Source of the DNA: Candidatus Nomurabacteria bacterium | GTDB lineage: Bacteria > Patescibacteriota > Minisyncoccia > Phycocordibacterales > UBA9973 | Length of the DNA: 36,282 nucleotides | NCBI GenBank assembly: GCA_943357245.1 | Contig: CALRGH010000005.1 | Coordinates: 1-36,282, forward strand | Reading direction: 5' to 3' | In this document: in pieces, positions 40 to 33,798 of the stretch | Numbering within the stretch: the first letter of the stretch is position 1 | Layout of the letters: each line of letters begins with the position of its first letter | Program-made: the position numbers and the translations under genes | The notes under the pieces: generated by a model | The model's input: the letters and a program-made list of their open reading frames with translations, nothing else | Database searches by the model: none | Told to the model about the DNA's origin: nothing

Positions 40-167
40 CCGGTTAGTAGAAAATGGCATTATTGGTTCGTGCCATATGTAATATGTAGTTAATTGTACA
101 TGAATTTATAAAAATAAGATTTACTCACCCCAATGCCGTAGGCGATGTCATTTTTCACTACGGGATT
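40..167 (-). repeat. Start-codon-abutting leader element, copy 1
   Basis: Gene-sense ends ATCCCGTAGTGAAAAATGAC ... ATGGCACGAACCAATAATGCCATTTTCTACTAACCGG|ATG; matches copies at 1448-1575 and 14691-14816. Confidence 0.75.
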
Positions 168-191
168 GCATCTTGTTAATTAGTTAGGCAT

Positions 192-1000: not shown

Positions 1001-1447
1001 CTATTTTTCACCAATCACTTCCAAAATCAACATTCCTTTTTTGGCACCAACTTGGAGTATTACTTCATGACGGCCGGTTGTTTTGAGAGGTTCTTCGAGG
1101 ATAATCGCATCAGCGTCGATATCTATGCGATGCTGGTTTGCCAATAATTCACTGATATCTTTTGGGTGAATTTTTGAGAAAAGATGGCCCATGTCATTTG
1201 CTTTGCGGTGGATTTCAAATACTTTTTCTTTGAGTTCGCCGAAATTCTTGTCGAGTAATGCATCTTGAATTCCCTTGGAAACATGGAGTGCAGAGAGAAT
1301 CTTTTTTAATTTCTCAAGATTTTTTGGAATTGCAGGTTCAGCCAAGCCTTTTTTAAAAAGGGCATTTTCTGCAAATCCCGAGGCAACTTCTTTGACCTCG
1401 TACTTCTTCCCTACTTTCGGGATGTCTCGTAACAGAATGATTTTCAT
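1001..1447 (-). CDS. rplI: 50S ribosomal protein L9 (bL9)
   Basis: MKIILLRDIPKVGKKYEVKEVASGFAENALFKKGLAEPAIPKNL; start at 1447 by homology, not the 1468 start of the ORF track. Confidence 0.93.
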   Translation of the reverse strand: MKIILLRDIPKVGKKYEVKEVASGFAENALFKKGLAEPAIPKNLEKLKKILSALHVSKGIQDALLDKNFGELKEKVFEIHRKANDMGHLFSKIHPKDISELLANQHRIDIDADAIILEEPLKTTGRHEVILQVGAKKGMLILEVIGEK

Positions 1448-1575
1448 CCGGCTAGTAGAAAATAGCATTATTGGTTTCTGCTATTTTTATTATCTGGTAA
1501 TACGGCATGGATATCATATTGAATAGATTTTATCTCGCCAATGCCTACGGCAATGCTATTTTTCACTACCGGATT
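1448..1575 (-). repeat. Start-codon-abutting leader element, copy 2 (rplI)
   Basis: Gene-sense AATCCGGTAGTGAAAAATAGCATTGCCGTAGGCATT ... AATAGCAGAAACCAATAATGCTATTTTCTACTAGCCGG|ATG. Confidence 0.8.
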
Positions 1576-1594
1576 CATGACTACATCCTAGCAA

Positions 1595-5206: not shown

Positions 5207-5926
5207 TTACACTACTTCTTTTGATTTTTTTTCAAAATGAGCAAAAGATTGTTGCAATTTGATTGGGAGCATTGAAACTTCTTCAATAGTGTCTATTATT
5301 TCAGCAAGGACACTTTTATCTTTTGAAAAAGCACAATAGTGCACAATAAATCTTGTGCATAATTTGTTACTGTGCGCAACGACGATATCTTCGTCTATAA
5401 TAAATGCGCAAGGAGTTGTCTTTACGATGTCCTCTTTTCCAAGGTCATAGCAACTCCATGGTTGTGGGTGGTTAGCCAGTTCAATTTCAGTGAGATCTTC
5501 TTTAAAGAAAAAAGTAGTCTTTAGTCTGTTGAACTTTAATTTTTTACCACCGTCTTGTTCGGGAAGTTTTTCTATTCCCAACGCTTGTTTGCCGGTGAGT
5601 CTGACGCGAATTACTTTTAATATACGAGCGTGATCAATATTAAATTTTTCTGAAAACGCGGTGGTATTGAGTATTTTTATCGTCTGTTCTGTTAATGTTT
5701 TAAACAGAAGACCGACAGTGTAATCCGATTTGTTTTTCCTTACCACAAGGAACAAATCAATTCCTTTGTTTTTAAGTACGCCACCGAGTATGGCATAATG
5801 TTTTGTTTCAGTCTCAAGTTCATCTGGAGTGCATTTTGAAGCAATTACCAAATGTGAGTTGAGTACCATTTCTCCGGTGTCAATTTTAATTGAAGTACCG
5901 ACTTCTTCTAGTGGGTCAAGGTGCAT
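5207..5926 (-). CDS. Hypothetical protein
   Basis: 239-aa intact ORF, no recognised motif. Confidence 0.7.
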   Translation of the reverse strand: MHLDPLEEVGTSIKIDTGEMVLNSHLVIASKCTPDELETETKHYAILGGVLKNKGIDLFLVVRKNKSDYTVGLLFKTLTEQTIKILNTTAFSEKFNIDHARILKVIRVRLTGKQALGIEKLPEQDGGKKLKFNRLKTTFFFKEDLTEIELANHPQPWSCYDLGKEDIVKTTPCAFIIDEDIVVAHSNKLCTRFIVHYCAFSKDKSVLAEIIDTIEEVSMLPIKLQQSFAHFEKKSKEVV

Positions 5927-9300: not shown

Positions 9301-9331
9301 TTACTAATTTAATCTGTTAATCTTACAGCTT

Positions 9332-9388
9332 TTAGTTGTTAGCTTTTAGTGTCTAGTGAAAAACTAGAAGCTAAAAGCTAACAACTAA
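9332..9388. repeat. Long hairpin between atpG and atpD matching the four-helix-bundle cassette ends
   Basis: TTAGTTGTTAGCTTTTAGTGTCTAGT-GAAA-AACTAGAAGCTAAAAGCTAACAACTAA; right arm reverse complement matches 28664-28690 at 26/27 positions. Confidence 0.85.
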
Positions 9389-9397
9389 TTACTTTCC

Positions 9398-10330
9398 TTA
9401 ACTTACTGCTGCCATGCCGGCGCTAATTTCTGATATCTCTTGCGTAATTGATGCTTGTCGAGCTTTGTTGTACGCTAATCCCAATTCGTCGATCATTTCT
9501 TCTGCGGATTCTTTTGCATTCTTCATGGCGACCATTCGTGCCGAGTGTTCCGATGCCAGTGATTCGAGCAGTGCGTGGTAGAAGCGTTGTTTGGAAAGAT
9601 GTCGGAGGAGGTTTGGGAGAATTGTACTTTGACTGGGTTCGATGAGGTAGTCGGTTTGTGACTCTTGTGTCATCCTCGGGTTATCTGTCGCAGATAGAAC
9701 CGGGGATCCATTGCTCCCTACATTCGCGATGGATTCCGGATCATGCTTCGCGGACTCGCTGTCCGGAATGACAGCGGCGGTGTCCCCCACTATCACCTTA
9801 TGCGTTGGCGTCTGGGTTAGTGCTGAAACATAATGCGTATAAAAGAGCTCTACTTTCGCATATTCCCCGCTTGCATATTGCTTGTCGATATAATTTGCAA
9901 TTGGTGCGACATCTCGCGAGGTCGGCATTTCGGGTAATTCAGTGAATGATGCAATGAGTGAACTTCCAAGTCGGGCGAGGGCGATTTTTCCTTTGCTGCC
10001 GATCGAGACAATATCAGTGCGTTCTCTGCCATATTGTTTGATTCGTTCAGCAGCAAGTTTTAATACTTGGGTATTGTAGCCGCCACAGAGTCCTTTGTTT
10101 GAGGTGATGACGATCAATAACAATTTGTTTCCTTTTGGTTTTTCTTGTTCCGCTAATCCATCAATCTTTTTCAGCAATGCTTCTGCGGCCGTCGCGTATG
10201 CTCGCGCCTCGAATGTCCGCGCAACTGCTTTTCGCATTTTTGCAGCCGAAACCAACTCCATTGCCTTGGTTATCTTTCCTGTGTTTTTAATCGATTTGAT
10301 TCGACTTTTTATTTCTTTGCCGGAGGCCAT
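9398..10330 (-). CDS. atpG: F-type ATP synthase gamma subunit with ~36-aa in-frame insertion
   Basis: MASGKEIKSRIKSIKNTGKITKAMELVSAAKMRKA...LLESLASEHSARMVAMKNAKESAEEMI. Confidence 0.95.
   Translation of the reverse strand: MASGKEIKSRIKSIKNTGKITKAMELVSAAKMRKAVARTFEARAYATAAEALLKKIDGLAEQEKPKGNKLLLIVITSNKGLCGGYNTQVLKLAAERIKQYGRERTDIVSIGSKGKIALARLGSSLIASFTELPEMPTSRDVAPIANYIDKQYASGEYAKVELFYTHYVSALTQTPTHKVIVGDTAAVIPDSESAKHDPESIANVGSNGSPVLSATDNPRMTQESQTDYLIEPSQSTILPNLLRHLSKQRFYHALLESLASEHSARMVAMKNAKESAEEMIDELGLAYNKARQASITQEISEISAGMAAVS
9667..9774. repeat. ~108-bp palindromic repeat within the atpG coding sequence
   Basis: GTGTCATCC...GGATTCCGGATCATGCTTCGCGGACTCGCTGTCCGGAATGACAG; shares core with 13506-13603 and 33691-33798. 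Confidence 0.85.
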
Positions 10331-13476: not shown

Positions 13477-13505
13477 AGGTCTTTTTATAATGTTCTCAGT
13501 TGTTT

Positions 13506-13603
13506 GTGTCGTCCCGGACACGAGTCCGCGAAGTTTGATCCGGGATCCAGGCTATTTGCCTTTTGTCCGTTGGCCTGGGCCCCGGCCTCCGCCGGGGTGA
13601 CAC
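13506..13603. repeat. ~98-bp palindromic repeat in the atpE/atpF spacer
   Basis: GTGTCGTCCCGGACACGAGTCCGCGAAGTTTGATCCGGGATCCAGG...GGCCTGGGCCCCGGCCTCCGCCGGGGTGACAC. Confidence 0.88.
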
Positions 13604-13614
13604 AAAAGTAAGAA

Positions 13615-13886: not shown

Positions 13887-14690
13887 TTAATGCGCATGCT
13901 TCGTCTCATGCTCTTCGTGTTCCTCATGATCCTGTGCTGCAATCGTAAAGTATACGGTTGCAAGCATTGCGAAGATGAGCGCTTGAATCACCCCAACCAT
14001 TACTTCTAAGAAATAAAATGGAAGTGGCAAGACGTACGCAACGATTGCTGCCATTGAAGCCAATAAGACCTCACCAGCGAACACGTTGCCGAACAATCGG
14101 AACGACAGCGATGCGACTTTTGCAAATTCTCCAATGAGCTCTAAAATCCCCACAAAGAACATGACTGGCGCAACAATGAGTCCTGTCGGTTCCTTTTTTG
14201 CATGACGCGCGCCTTTGTGGAGAGCCTTTAGATTAACATATTTGTTGAACGTTTTCCATATGCCAAGTGAGAAAATACCGAAGATGTTTGCACCAATAAC
14301 CGCAATGAGTGCAAGGGCGATGGTGGTATTTACATCTGCAGTGCCGCCACGAAAAAATGGACTCCCATCGAAGAAAATACCACTAAGAGGCAATAGTCCA
14401 AACCAATTGTTTAAAAGAACGAATACGAAAATAGCGAGCCCAAGTGGCATAACTTTTTGTGAAATTTTTCTATCGTTGGTTACTTGGTCTGCAAGAGATA
14501 GTGCACCATCGATGAGTAGTTCAAAAATACTTTGCAATTTGCCCGGCAATGCTTTTTTACGCAAGAAAAGCACGAGCAGTAAAATAATAAGTGTTGATGC
14601 AGTGCTTGCAATAATGGAATTGGTAATAGGAAAACCGGCAATAGTGCCTAGCTGTTCTGCAAAAAGAGTTATGTGATGTGATTCTTCCAT
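13887..14690 (-). CDS. atpB: F-type ATP synthase a subunit
   Basis: LSLADQVTNDRKISQKVMPLGLAIFVFVLLNNWFGLLP...ELIGEFAKVASLSFRLFGNVFAGEVLL. Confidence 0.97.
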   Translation of the reverse strand: MEESHHITLFAEQLGTIAGFPITNSIIASTASTLIILLLVLFLRKKALPGKLQSIFELLIDGALSLADQVTNDRKISQKVMPLGLAIFVFVLLNNWFGLLPLSGIFFDGSPFFRGGTADVNTTIALALIAVIGANIFGIFSLGIWKTFNKYVNLKALHKGARHAKKEPTGLIVAPVMFFVGILELIGEFAKVASLSFRLFGNVFAGEVLLASMAAIVAYVLPLPFYFLEVMVGVIQALIFAMLATVYFTIAAQDHEEHEEHETKHAH

Positions 14691-14816
14691 CCGGTTAGTA
14701 GAAAATAGCGTTATTGATTCTCGCTATGATTTTTATTTGGTAATAGTTCATTTGTTTTAATTAAGAGATAGTATGCACTAGAATACCTACGGCTACGCTA
14801 TTTTTCACTACCGGAT
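14691..14816 (-). repeat. Start-codon-abutting leader element, copy 3 (atpB)
   Basis: Gene-sense ATCCGGTAGTGAAAAATAGCGTAGCCGTAGGTATT ... ATAGCGAGAATCAATAACGCTATTTTCTACTAACCGG|ATG. Confidence 0.8.
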
Positions 14817-14821
14817 CCATA

Positions 14822-28223: not shown

Positions 28224-28658
28224 TTAAAATTTATTAATGCGACGGATATGACGCTCTTCATTGGTGAATTTACTCGCAAGCCATAGATCAACTGCGCCAA
28301 TTGCCTCCGGATCAGTCATAAAATGCTGGCTGAGAGAAAGGATATTTGCGTTGTTGTGTTCACGGGAGAGTACGAGTATCTTTGGCGCACCGCCATAATA
28401 TGCTGTTGCGCGAATACCTTTGATACGATTGGCGCACATCGCCTCGCCTTCTCCGGAAAAACCAGTGATAATACCCAAACTTTCGGTATCTTCCACAACC
28501 GCTTGCGCACATGGAGTAATAAAATCTGGGTAATCGTCACCCTCGTTGTATTCCATTGGACCATGATCAATAACCTCATGCCCCAATTTGGTTACATGTT
28601 CGATAAGTGCTTTTTTTAATTCAAATCCTGCGTGATCTGATGCGAAGTGTAGTCTCAT
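28224..28658 (-). CDS. rpiB: Ribose 5-phosphate isomerase B
   Basis: ASDHAGFELKKALIEHVTKLGHEVIDHGP...GFSGEGEAMCANRIKGIRATAYYG...NNANILSLSQH. Confidence 0.95.
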   Translation of the reverse strand: MRLHFASDHAGFELKKALIEHVTKLGHEVIDHGPMEYNEGDDYPDFITPCAQAVVEDTESLGIITGFSGEGEAMCANRIKGIRATAYYGGAPKILVLSREHNNANILSLSQHFMTDPEAIGAVDLWLASKFTNEERHIRRINKF

Positions 28659-28660
28659 AG

Positions 28661-28691
28661 TTTTTAGTGGTTAGCTTTTAGCTTCTAGTTT
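28661..28691. repeat. Left inverted repeat of the four-helix-bundle cassette
   Basis: TTTTTAGTGGTTAGCTTTTAGCTTCTAGTTT. Confidence 0.85.
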
Positions 28692-29036: not shown

Positions 29037-29039
29037 GTA

Positions 29040-29072
29040 ACTACAAGCTAACCACTAAAAGCTAAAAACTAT
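29040..29072. repeat. Right inverted repeat of the four-helix-bundle cassette
   Basis: AACTACAAGCTAACCACTAAAAGCTAAAAACTA; reverse complement of the left-end motif with small rearrangements. Confidence 0.82.
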
Positions 29073-29073
29073 C

Positions 29074-29376
29074 CTACGACTCGTCGAGGATTATTCTCTT
29101 CTCAAACCCTCCTCGCTTTGCCTTTTTAAAATCCTTTGCCATCATAATGTCTTCTTTTGAAAATTCATGGTGGGCAATGATTGCGTCCAACACTTCTAAA
29201 ATATCTGCAATTTCATCTTCGTCTTCACTCTTTAAAAATTCATCAACTTCTTCGCGCAATTTTTCATGTAGTTTTTCTTCGTATTCCTCATTATCCGCGA
29301 CGTGCCAGGTGGACTGTTGGCCTTTTTGCGAAATAATTTCAGGGATTTTATCGCGAACGAGTTTGTTGTATTCCAT
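29074..29376 (-). CDS. MazG-like / phosphoribosyl-ATP pyrophosphohydrolase-like protein
   Basis: YNKLVRDKIPEIISQKG...KLREEVDEFLKSEDEDEIADILEVLDAII. Confidence 0.9.
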   Translation of the reverse strand: MEYNKLVRDKIPEIISQKGQQSTWHVADNEEYEEKLHEKLREEVDEFLKSEDEDEIADILEVLDAIIAHHEFSKEDIMMAKDFKKAKRGGFEKRIILDES

Positions 29377-33671: not shown

Positions 33672-33690
33672 GATGAGTTTTTCTTATTTT

Positions 33691-33798
33691 GTGTCATACC
33701 GGCGAAGGCCGGTACCCAGGCCAGCGAACATTAGGACAATCACACATGCCGCCTGGATCCCGGATCATACTTTGCGGACTCGTGTCCGGGATGACACA
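33691..33798. repeat. ~108-bp palindromic repeat upstream of gatB
   Basis: GTGTCATACCGGCGAAGGCCGGTACCCAGGCC...GCCTGGATCCCGGATCATACTTTGCGGACTCGTGTCCGGGATGACAC. Confidence 0.88.

Follow-up and report, generated by a model that had tools for sequence, protein, structure and literature searches.

Probable mobile hairpin-forming palindromes at start codons and promoter boxes of Patescibacteria

A repeated leader in one Patescibacterial sequence

The window analysed here is a stretch of 36,282 nucleotides from a Candidatus Nomurabacteria bacterium (contig CALRGH010000005.1 of assembly GCA_943357245.1). On its minus strand lie rplI, atpB and a gene that runs off the window, and each of these has a copy of the same imperfect palindrome directly in front of its start codon (Table 1). 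An earlier note on this DNA had described a short local hairpin beside the ATG in all three leaders, and we find it there, on the minus strand, as described.

Table 1. Palindrome copies in the window, their parts and the adjoining genes (positions in the window).
Feature	Position	Strand	Remarks
rplI ORF	1001-1447	-	Pfam Ribosomal_L9
rplI copy, gene-proximal duplicated target ATGAA	1443-1447	-	rplI start codon
rplI copy	1448-1573	-	Termini CCGG...CCGG; core TAGT..ACTA 1453-1568
rplI copy with both duplicated sites	1443-1578	-	
rplI copy, gene-proximal outer-stem arm, AG type	1453-1468	-	TAGTAGAAAATAGCAT read on the plus strand
rplI copy, local hairpin adjoining the ATG	1462-1484	-	ATAGCA (1484-1479), 11 nt, TGCTAT (1467-1462)
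rplI copy, distal outer-stem arm, GA type	1553-1568	-	TAGTGAAAAATAGCAT read on the minus strand; fixed 2-nt mismatch against the other arm
rplI copy, distal-arm segment	1559-1554	-	Alternative partner of the hairpin's 3' strand
rplI copy, distal duplicated target ATGAA	1574-1578	-	Presumed original start, probably leaderless; promoter-like GCTAGGAT just upstream
Copy 1	40-165	-	34-171 with duplicated sites
Copy 1, duplicated site ATGCAA	34-39 and 166-171	-	34-39: start codon of the gene running off the window
atpB copy	14691-14815	-	About 14685-14820 with duplicated sites
atpB copy, duplicated site ATGGA	14686-14690 and 14816-14820	-	14686-14690: atpB start codon
atpB ORF	13887-14690	-	Pfam ATP-synt_A

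We call the element the GTAGT palindrome, a name that is descriptive only. It is a dispersed imperfect palindrome of about 125 nt with the termini CCNG-TAGT-(AG or GA), and it comes in a long class, with 100-131 nt between TAGT and ACTA, and a short class of copies 58-92 nt in length. Copies were gathered by means of terminus patterns, so divergent members will have been missed, and each was oriented by the longer downstream ORF. All genomes are metagenome-assembled as far as their records say, and gene names other than rplI, atpB and pilin were read off the translated starts without a profile search.

All 140 long copies examined come from Patescibacteria. An arm-based pattern has eight matches in the window's own genome and one to seven in each of 6 of 80 relatives, while the reversed control pattern has none. 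A scan of 264 Gb from 85,462 species returned 77 matching stretches; those named to a taxon are all Parcubacteria/Patescibacteria metagenome-assembled genomes, and a few are labelled "bacterium" only. Of 297 genomes of the order, 38 have the more generic termini CCNGTAGTRR..YYACTACNGG in the short form and 27 in the long form, and phylum-wide the short form is present in 14 of 290 genomes; in each of these searches the reversed control was confined to one to few genomes. We found no description of such elements in Patescibacteria in the open-licence literature, where absence is weak evidence.

The window holds other repeats as well. A dispersed G+C-rich family (..CCGGGATCCAGGC / GTGTCCGGGATGACACA..), which also occurs in inverted orientation, lies at 13505-13607, 33687-33798 and 9730-9758, and identical or near-identical 19-nt palindromes, CTCCGCCAGCTGGCGGATT, lie at 2242, 8973 and 12182. 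Yet another family seems to be represented at 9318-9393, 28643-28690 and 29039-29086, where an A/T-rich intergenic sequence (TAGTTGTTAGCTTTTAGTGTCTAGT..) recurs, in part inverted.

Insertion at start codons and promoter boxes

In the window's own and related genomes nearly all copies with a readable flank end in ...CNGG/ATG at the start of a gene. In 116 of the 140 long copies an ORF of at least 40 aa begins right at the edge of the element, and in 12 others the neighbour is an ATG-like codon whose ORF is short or cut. The ATG and the next two or three bases usually recur at the far end of the element, as ATGAA at rplI, ATGGA at atpB, ATGCAA at copy 1 and ATGGAA at recG. A duplication of at least 5 nt is present in 80 of 111 long copies, against 35 expected by permutation (5000 rounds, none above 49); among right flanks that differ from ATGAA the count is 28 of 48, against 11 expected. 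About a quarter of the start-codon copies have no duplication of at least 5 nt, and these may reflect decay or another mechanism.

Four sites within the genus are empty in one genome, with promoter, ATG and gene intact; a second genome (G001) is empty where the window's own (G000) is filled, and vice versa. The pairs read ..GGTATACTCATACATATG-ATGAA-GCA (L023 and L234), ..GGTATACTCAAAG[CT]-ATGAA-AACA (L024 and L227), ..TTATACTAAACC..-ATGGAA-CT at recG (L025 and L226) and ..GATATATTGAAATC-ATGAA-AATTCTG (L059:3363, filled in G001, and L229, empty in G000). G001 has no insertion at rplI itself; the one at atpB is present in both genomes. The duplications and empty sites together show that the element moves by insertion that duplicates 5-6 nt of its target. 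Because the signal into which it lands is duplicated, the gene survives. Tn916-like coupling sequences, in which the flanks differ between the two sides, are ruled out, since the flanks match in most copies.

Short copies use other signals. In 26 of 41 a -35 box starts at the junction with a -10 box correctly spaced (null 7.1, maximum 14), and, again in 26 of 41, a duplication of at least 5 nt such as GTTGAC/GTTGAC is present (null 4.8, maximum 12). Short relatives lie in -35 boxes with (G)TTGAC or TTGC duplicated in L131, L258, L260, L261, L328, L237, L250 and others, and several short copies in G316 lie at extended -10 boxes (TGATATAAT). Two further copies (L076:1392-1514 and 5259-5381, on contig C3 of G024) interrupt pseudopilin genes without breaking the frame, exactly at the G^FT motif where the prepilin is cleaved. 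There the layout is GFT[PSVENG...MPFFTT]GFTLIELL, with GFT duplicated and the insert upstream of the cleavage site; the roughly 43 extra residues would be cut off together with the leader peptide. In the promoter-box and pilin cases it is the gene-side copy of the duplicated target that restores the signal.

Several individual arrangements may be recorded here. In Wolfebacteria NORP133 (G082; L126, L145 and L147) start-codon insertions are nested or in tandem, one element lying at a start codon made by another. The insertion at an apparent methionine aminopeptidase gene (L125) is one base off: the last G of the element joins TG to make a GTG start in place of the original ATG. Three consecutive atp-operon genes (atpB, apparent atpF and apparent atpH; L149:4363-6668) have a start-codon copy each. 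A mini hairpin of about 30 nt with the same ends (CCAGTAGTAGAACC..GGTTCACTACGGG) adjoins a tRNA-like sequence (GGGCATATAGCTCAGCTGGTTA..) at G561:C6:23450-23517.

The genes behind start-codon copies are unrelated housekeeping genes (named from translations): rplI, atpB, secY, recG, topA, smc, murG, typA, proS and others. Since they do not form a functionally coherent set, as the targets of a riboswitch would, there is no regulon or ligand logic in the distribution. Upstream of the distal ATG the -10 hexamers (TANNNT) cluster sharply, 48 of them ending 6-8 nt short of it, and many of the original genes therefore look leaderless; a Shine-Dalgarno-like motif precedes the proximal ATG in none of 117 cases and the distal ATG in four. 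The reading frame from the distal to the proximal ATG is open in none of 97 start-codon copies, which rules out a leader peptide or a fusion protein begun at the distal ATG and means that the second AUG must be used separately. An internal promoter of the element driving the gene is ruled out too, the forward strand being no better than the reverse.

The folded ends and the pairings beside the AUG

Across the 140 long copies and 42 short ones the outer stem has 16 paired positions, at which both sides often change, and its arms are about 83-100% complementary per column except at a fixed mismatch of 2 nt. This mismatch occupies positions 5-6 from the start of TAGT, with AG in one arm and GA in the other; in an unbiased count 94 of 95 arm pairs were AG/GA, and none was AG/AG or GA/GA. 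Few copies have a fully paired outer stem. Past TAGT-(AG or GA) the sequence of the arms varies freely over about 10 base pairs and complementarity is retained. The covariation and the invariant AG/GA asymmetry show that the ends are conserved as a folded imperfect hairpin and not as sequence. The orientation of AG/GA is not linked to that of the interior, which would not be expected of a simple inverted-repeat transposon. Short copies at -35 boxes, which lie outside the downstream mRNA, have the same covarying stem and the same fixed mismatch, and the covariation of the outer stem is thus a property of the element and not a leader function.

The earlier note had proposed that one strand beside the ATG chooses between the local hairpin and a long stem with the distal arm, and that this is the logic of a riboswitch or translational switch. 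Much of the structural description stands. The 3' strand of the rplI hairpin can indeed pair with the distal arm instead, and local pairing exceeds chance: a 6-mer complementary throughout to the gene-proximal arm lies close to it in 60 of 140 long copies (shuffled sequences give 10.6, at most 17). For the distal arm such a 6-mer is present in 8 of 140 (11.6 in shuffles), so the local hairpin is restricted to the gene-proximal side. As claimed, covariation links the distal arm, inner copy and proximal arm: 24 copies of the same subtype show the matched variants ATAGCA, ATGGCA, ATGACA/GTGACA, ATAGCG and ATGGCG. Nearly every member of this set has two arms that pair fully, and most can also pair the inner copy with the proximal arm if G-U is counted. 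The long stem also exists, but its description needs two corrections. At atpB and rplI the stem runs on through CCGG, and the A and U of the AUG pair with the AU of the distal AUCCGG (ATCCGG in the DNA); and although the arms do pair, the 2-nt mismatch between them (AG opposite TC, or GA opposite CT) had gone unremarked.

Partition-function analysis of the leaders, which the note had suggested as a check, finds the long stem far the stronger in most of them. Proximal and distal arms pair with a probability above 0.9 in 101 of 116 leaders. Forbidding the long stem costs a median of 10.8 kcal/mol, and 4 kcal/mol or less in nine leaders only; mean accessibility of the AUG is 0.31 when folding is free and 0.35 when the long stem is forbidden. 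Because the long stem is so much more stable and access to the AUG hardly differs, a two-state switch is weakly supported by these models. For rplI the gap is only about 1.3 kcal/mol in minimum energy and about 2.5 in the ensemble, so a secondary effect on translation, local to this gene, is possible. A cis-regulatory RNA leader, in which the 3' arm alternates between local hairpin and long stem and so opens or closes the start codon, would account for the two covarying pairings, for the confinement of the local hairpin to the gene-proximal side, for the pairing of the AUG's A and U in the long stem and for folds within about 1-3 kcal/mol of each other at rplI and copy 1. It would also resemble known riboswitch-type leaders (Rfam cis-regulatory families) in being structured, covarying and beside a start codon with two alternative pairings. 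We nevertheless regard it as very improbable. Copies of the element are mobile and dispersed over unrelated genes with no common theme, the start codon is duplicated and empty sites exist, the same stem is kept in short copies outside transcripts, the folds are in general not comparable in energy and the alternative one gives no clear gain in access to the AUG, and Rfam has no family that matches. The step from competing pairings to a switch therefore fails. What we prefer, at a probability of about 0.85, is that the supposed RNA switch of the rplI leader is one copy of a mobile, non-autonomous, hairpin-forming DNA palindrome of Patescibacteria.

A variant would have an ancient transposable palindrome now domesticated, and kept since its fold sets the translation of leaderless genes, for example by bringing the 5' AUG beside the second AUG at the base of the stem. 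The leaderless look of the genes to the left fits this, as do the stem base, which sets the two copies of the AUG side by side, the separate use of the second AUG that the closed frame requires, and the atpB copy common to both genomes of the genus. Most of the copies compared differ between close relatives, however, which suggests turnover rather than retention, and the pilin genes that carry a copy in frame suggest that being translated is no obstacle to the element in those genes. We think domestication unlikely.

Relation to known elements and possible mode of movement

The nearest known kinds are REPINs, Rickettsia palindromic elements (RPEs) and MITEs; the GTAGT palindrome shares features with each, and for each it fails one defining feature or leaves it open. 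An integron attC site is a poor candidate, since its R-box consensus does not fit the termini.

REPINs are short non-autonomous palindromes with GTAG at each end and inverted arms with compensatory changes, which can form a long hairpin or a "clover" of local hairpins (PMC3116915, PMC3733652). The GTAGT palindrome is likewise short, non-autonomous and without a gene of its own, its inverted arms show compensatory changes, it has long- and local-hairpin folds, and GTAG stands at most of its ends (TTAG or CTAG at some). Y1/RAYT-like genes are moreover common in these bacteria, and the element might be a REPIN moved by their RAYT (REP-associated Y1 transposase). Two co-occurrence tests gave the RAYT/Y1 transposase no support as the mobiliser: RAYT is found in 23 of 28 carriers and 20 of 30 non-carriers (p = 0.24), and a REPIN should have a cognate RAYT in its genome, whereas five of the 28 carriers (G013, G170, G190, G264 and G323) have none detectable. 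The window's own genome does have a RAYT-like Y1 transposase gene (L293, G000:C6), whose product of 218 aa is identical in G000 and G001, but the hairpin on both sides of it (431-461 and 1138-1160; ACCCAGGAGGC..GCCTCCTGGGT) is a different one. In the GTAGT palindrome the arm itself forms the long hairpin, with no independent REP hairpin conserved on both sides, and the 5-6 nt duplication, the exact insertion at start codons and -35 boxes, the fixed AG/GA mismatch and the freely varying arms set it further apart; target duplication and signal-precise insertion do not figure in the consulted passages of the REP and REPIN papers. A REPIN moved by a resident RAYT is accordingly a doubtful identification.

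RPEs are known for inserting in frame into coding genes that are unrelated to one another (PMC10969869). Like the GTAGT palindrome, they are selfish palindromes of roughly 100-150 nt that genes can tolerate, at times in frame. Here the in-frame feature is limited to the two pilin copies, none of the 97 start-codon copies being open, and the element sits instead at start codons and promoter boxes with the signal duplicated; the two are compared here by their descriptions. With MITEs (Correia, BOX/RUP, MITEAba12 and others) it shares miniature size, terminal inverted repeats in its 16-bp arms, target-site duplications in long and short copies alike together with empty sites, a place near genes and the lack of its own gene. 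Unlike them it keeps, along most of the arm, complementarity rather than a terminal sequence, its position is exact relative to gene signals, and no partner IS with the same ends was found in the carriers searched, which are draft genomes. Nor did a search of G000, G082, G102 and other carriers, again drafts, reveal a widely spaced pair of ends that could enclose a mobilising gene or mark an autonomous element.

RAYT and IS200-type enzymes recognise a folded single strand. The enzyme that moves the GTAGT palindrome probably does the same, with the AG/GA mismatch giving it polarity, and the long- and local-hairpin folds would play the part proposed for the hairpin and clover folds of REPINs (PMC3116915). 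The rplI local hairpin is a third, internal copy of the arm motif and is part of the element's alternative fold with two local hairpins. Long copies are probably kept at the start codons of many genes that look leaderless since, thanks to the duplication, the gene retains both its ATG and its coding sequence beside the insert, and short copies at -35 and -10 boxes for the same reason, the gene-side signal staying intact. The exact positions could mean that the enzyme targets these signals or that selection removes all other insertions. A bolder proposal is a new class of mobile hairpin, whose enzyme reads the folded strand with its fixed AG/GA mismatch and is guided to start codons and -35 or -10 boxes, and whose RNA, at leaderless genes, links the 5' AUG with its duplicate at the far end, the insert being skipped in translation; we hold this as speculation, and unlikely.

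The GTAGT palindrome of our preferred reading would be a mobile family across Patescibacteria, of which the literature searched held no description, that inserts with single-nucleotide precision at start codons and promoter boxes, duplicating the signal. It also carries a caution: covariation and adjacency to a start codon do not by themselves make a riboswitch. The family opens to test what kind of enzyme mobilises hairpin DNA in such reduced genomes, whether gene-expression signals guide the choice of target, and how leaderless genes stay translated behind a folded insert of 130 nt without a Shine-Dalgarno motif.
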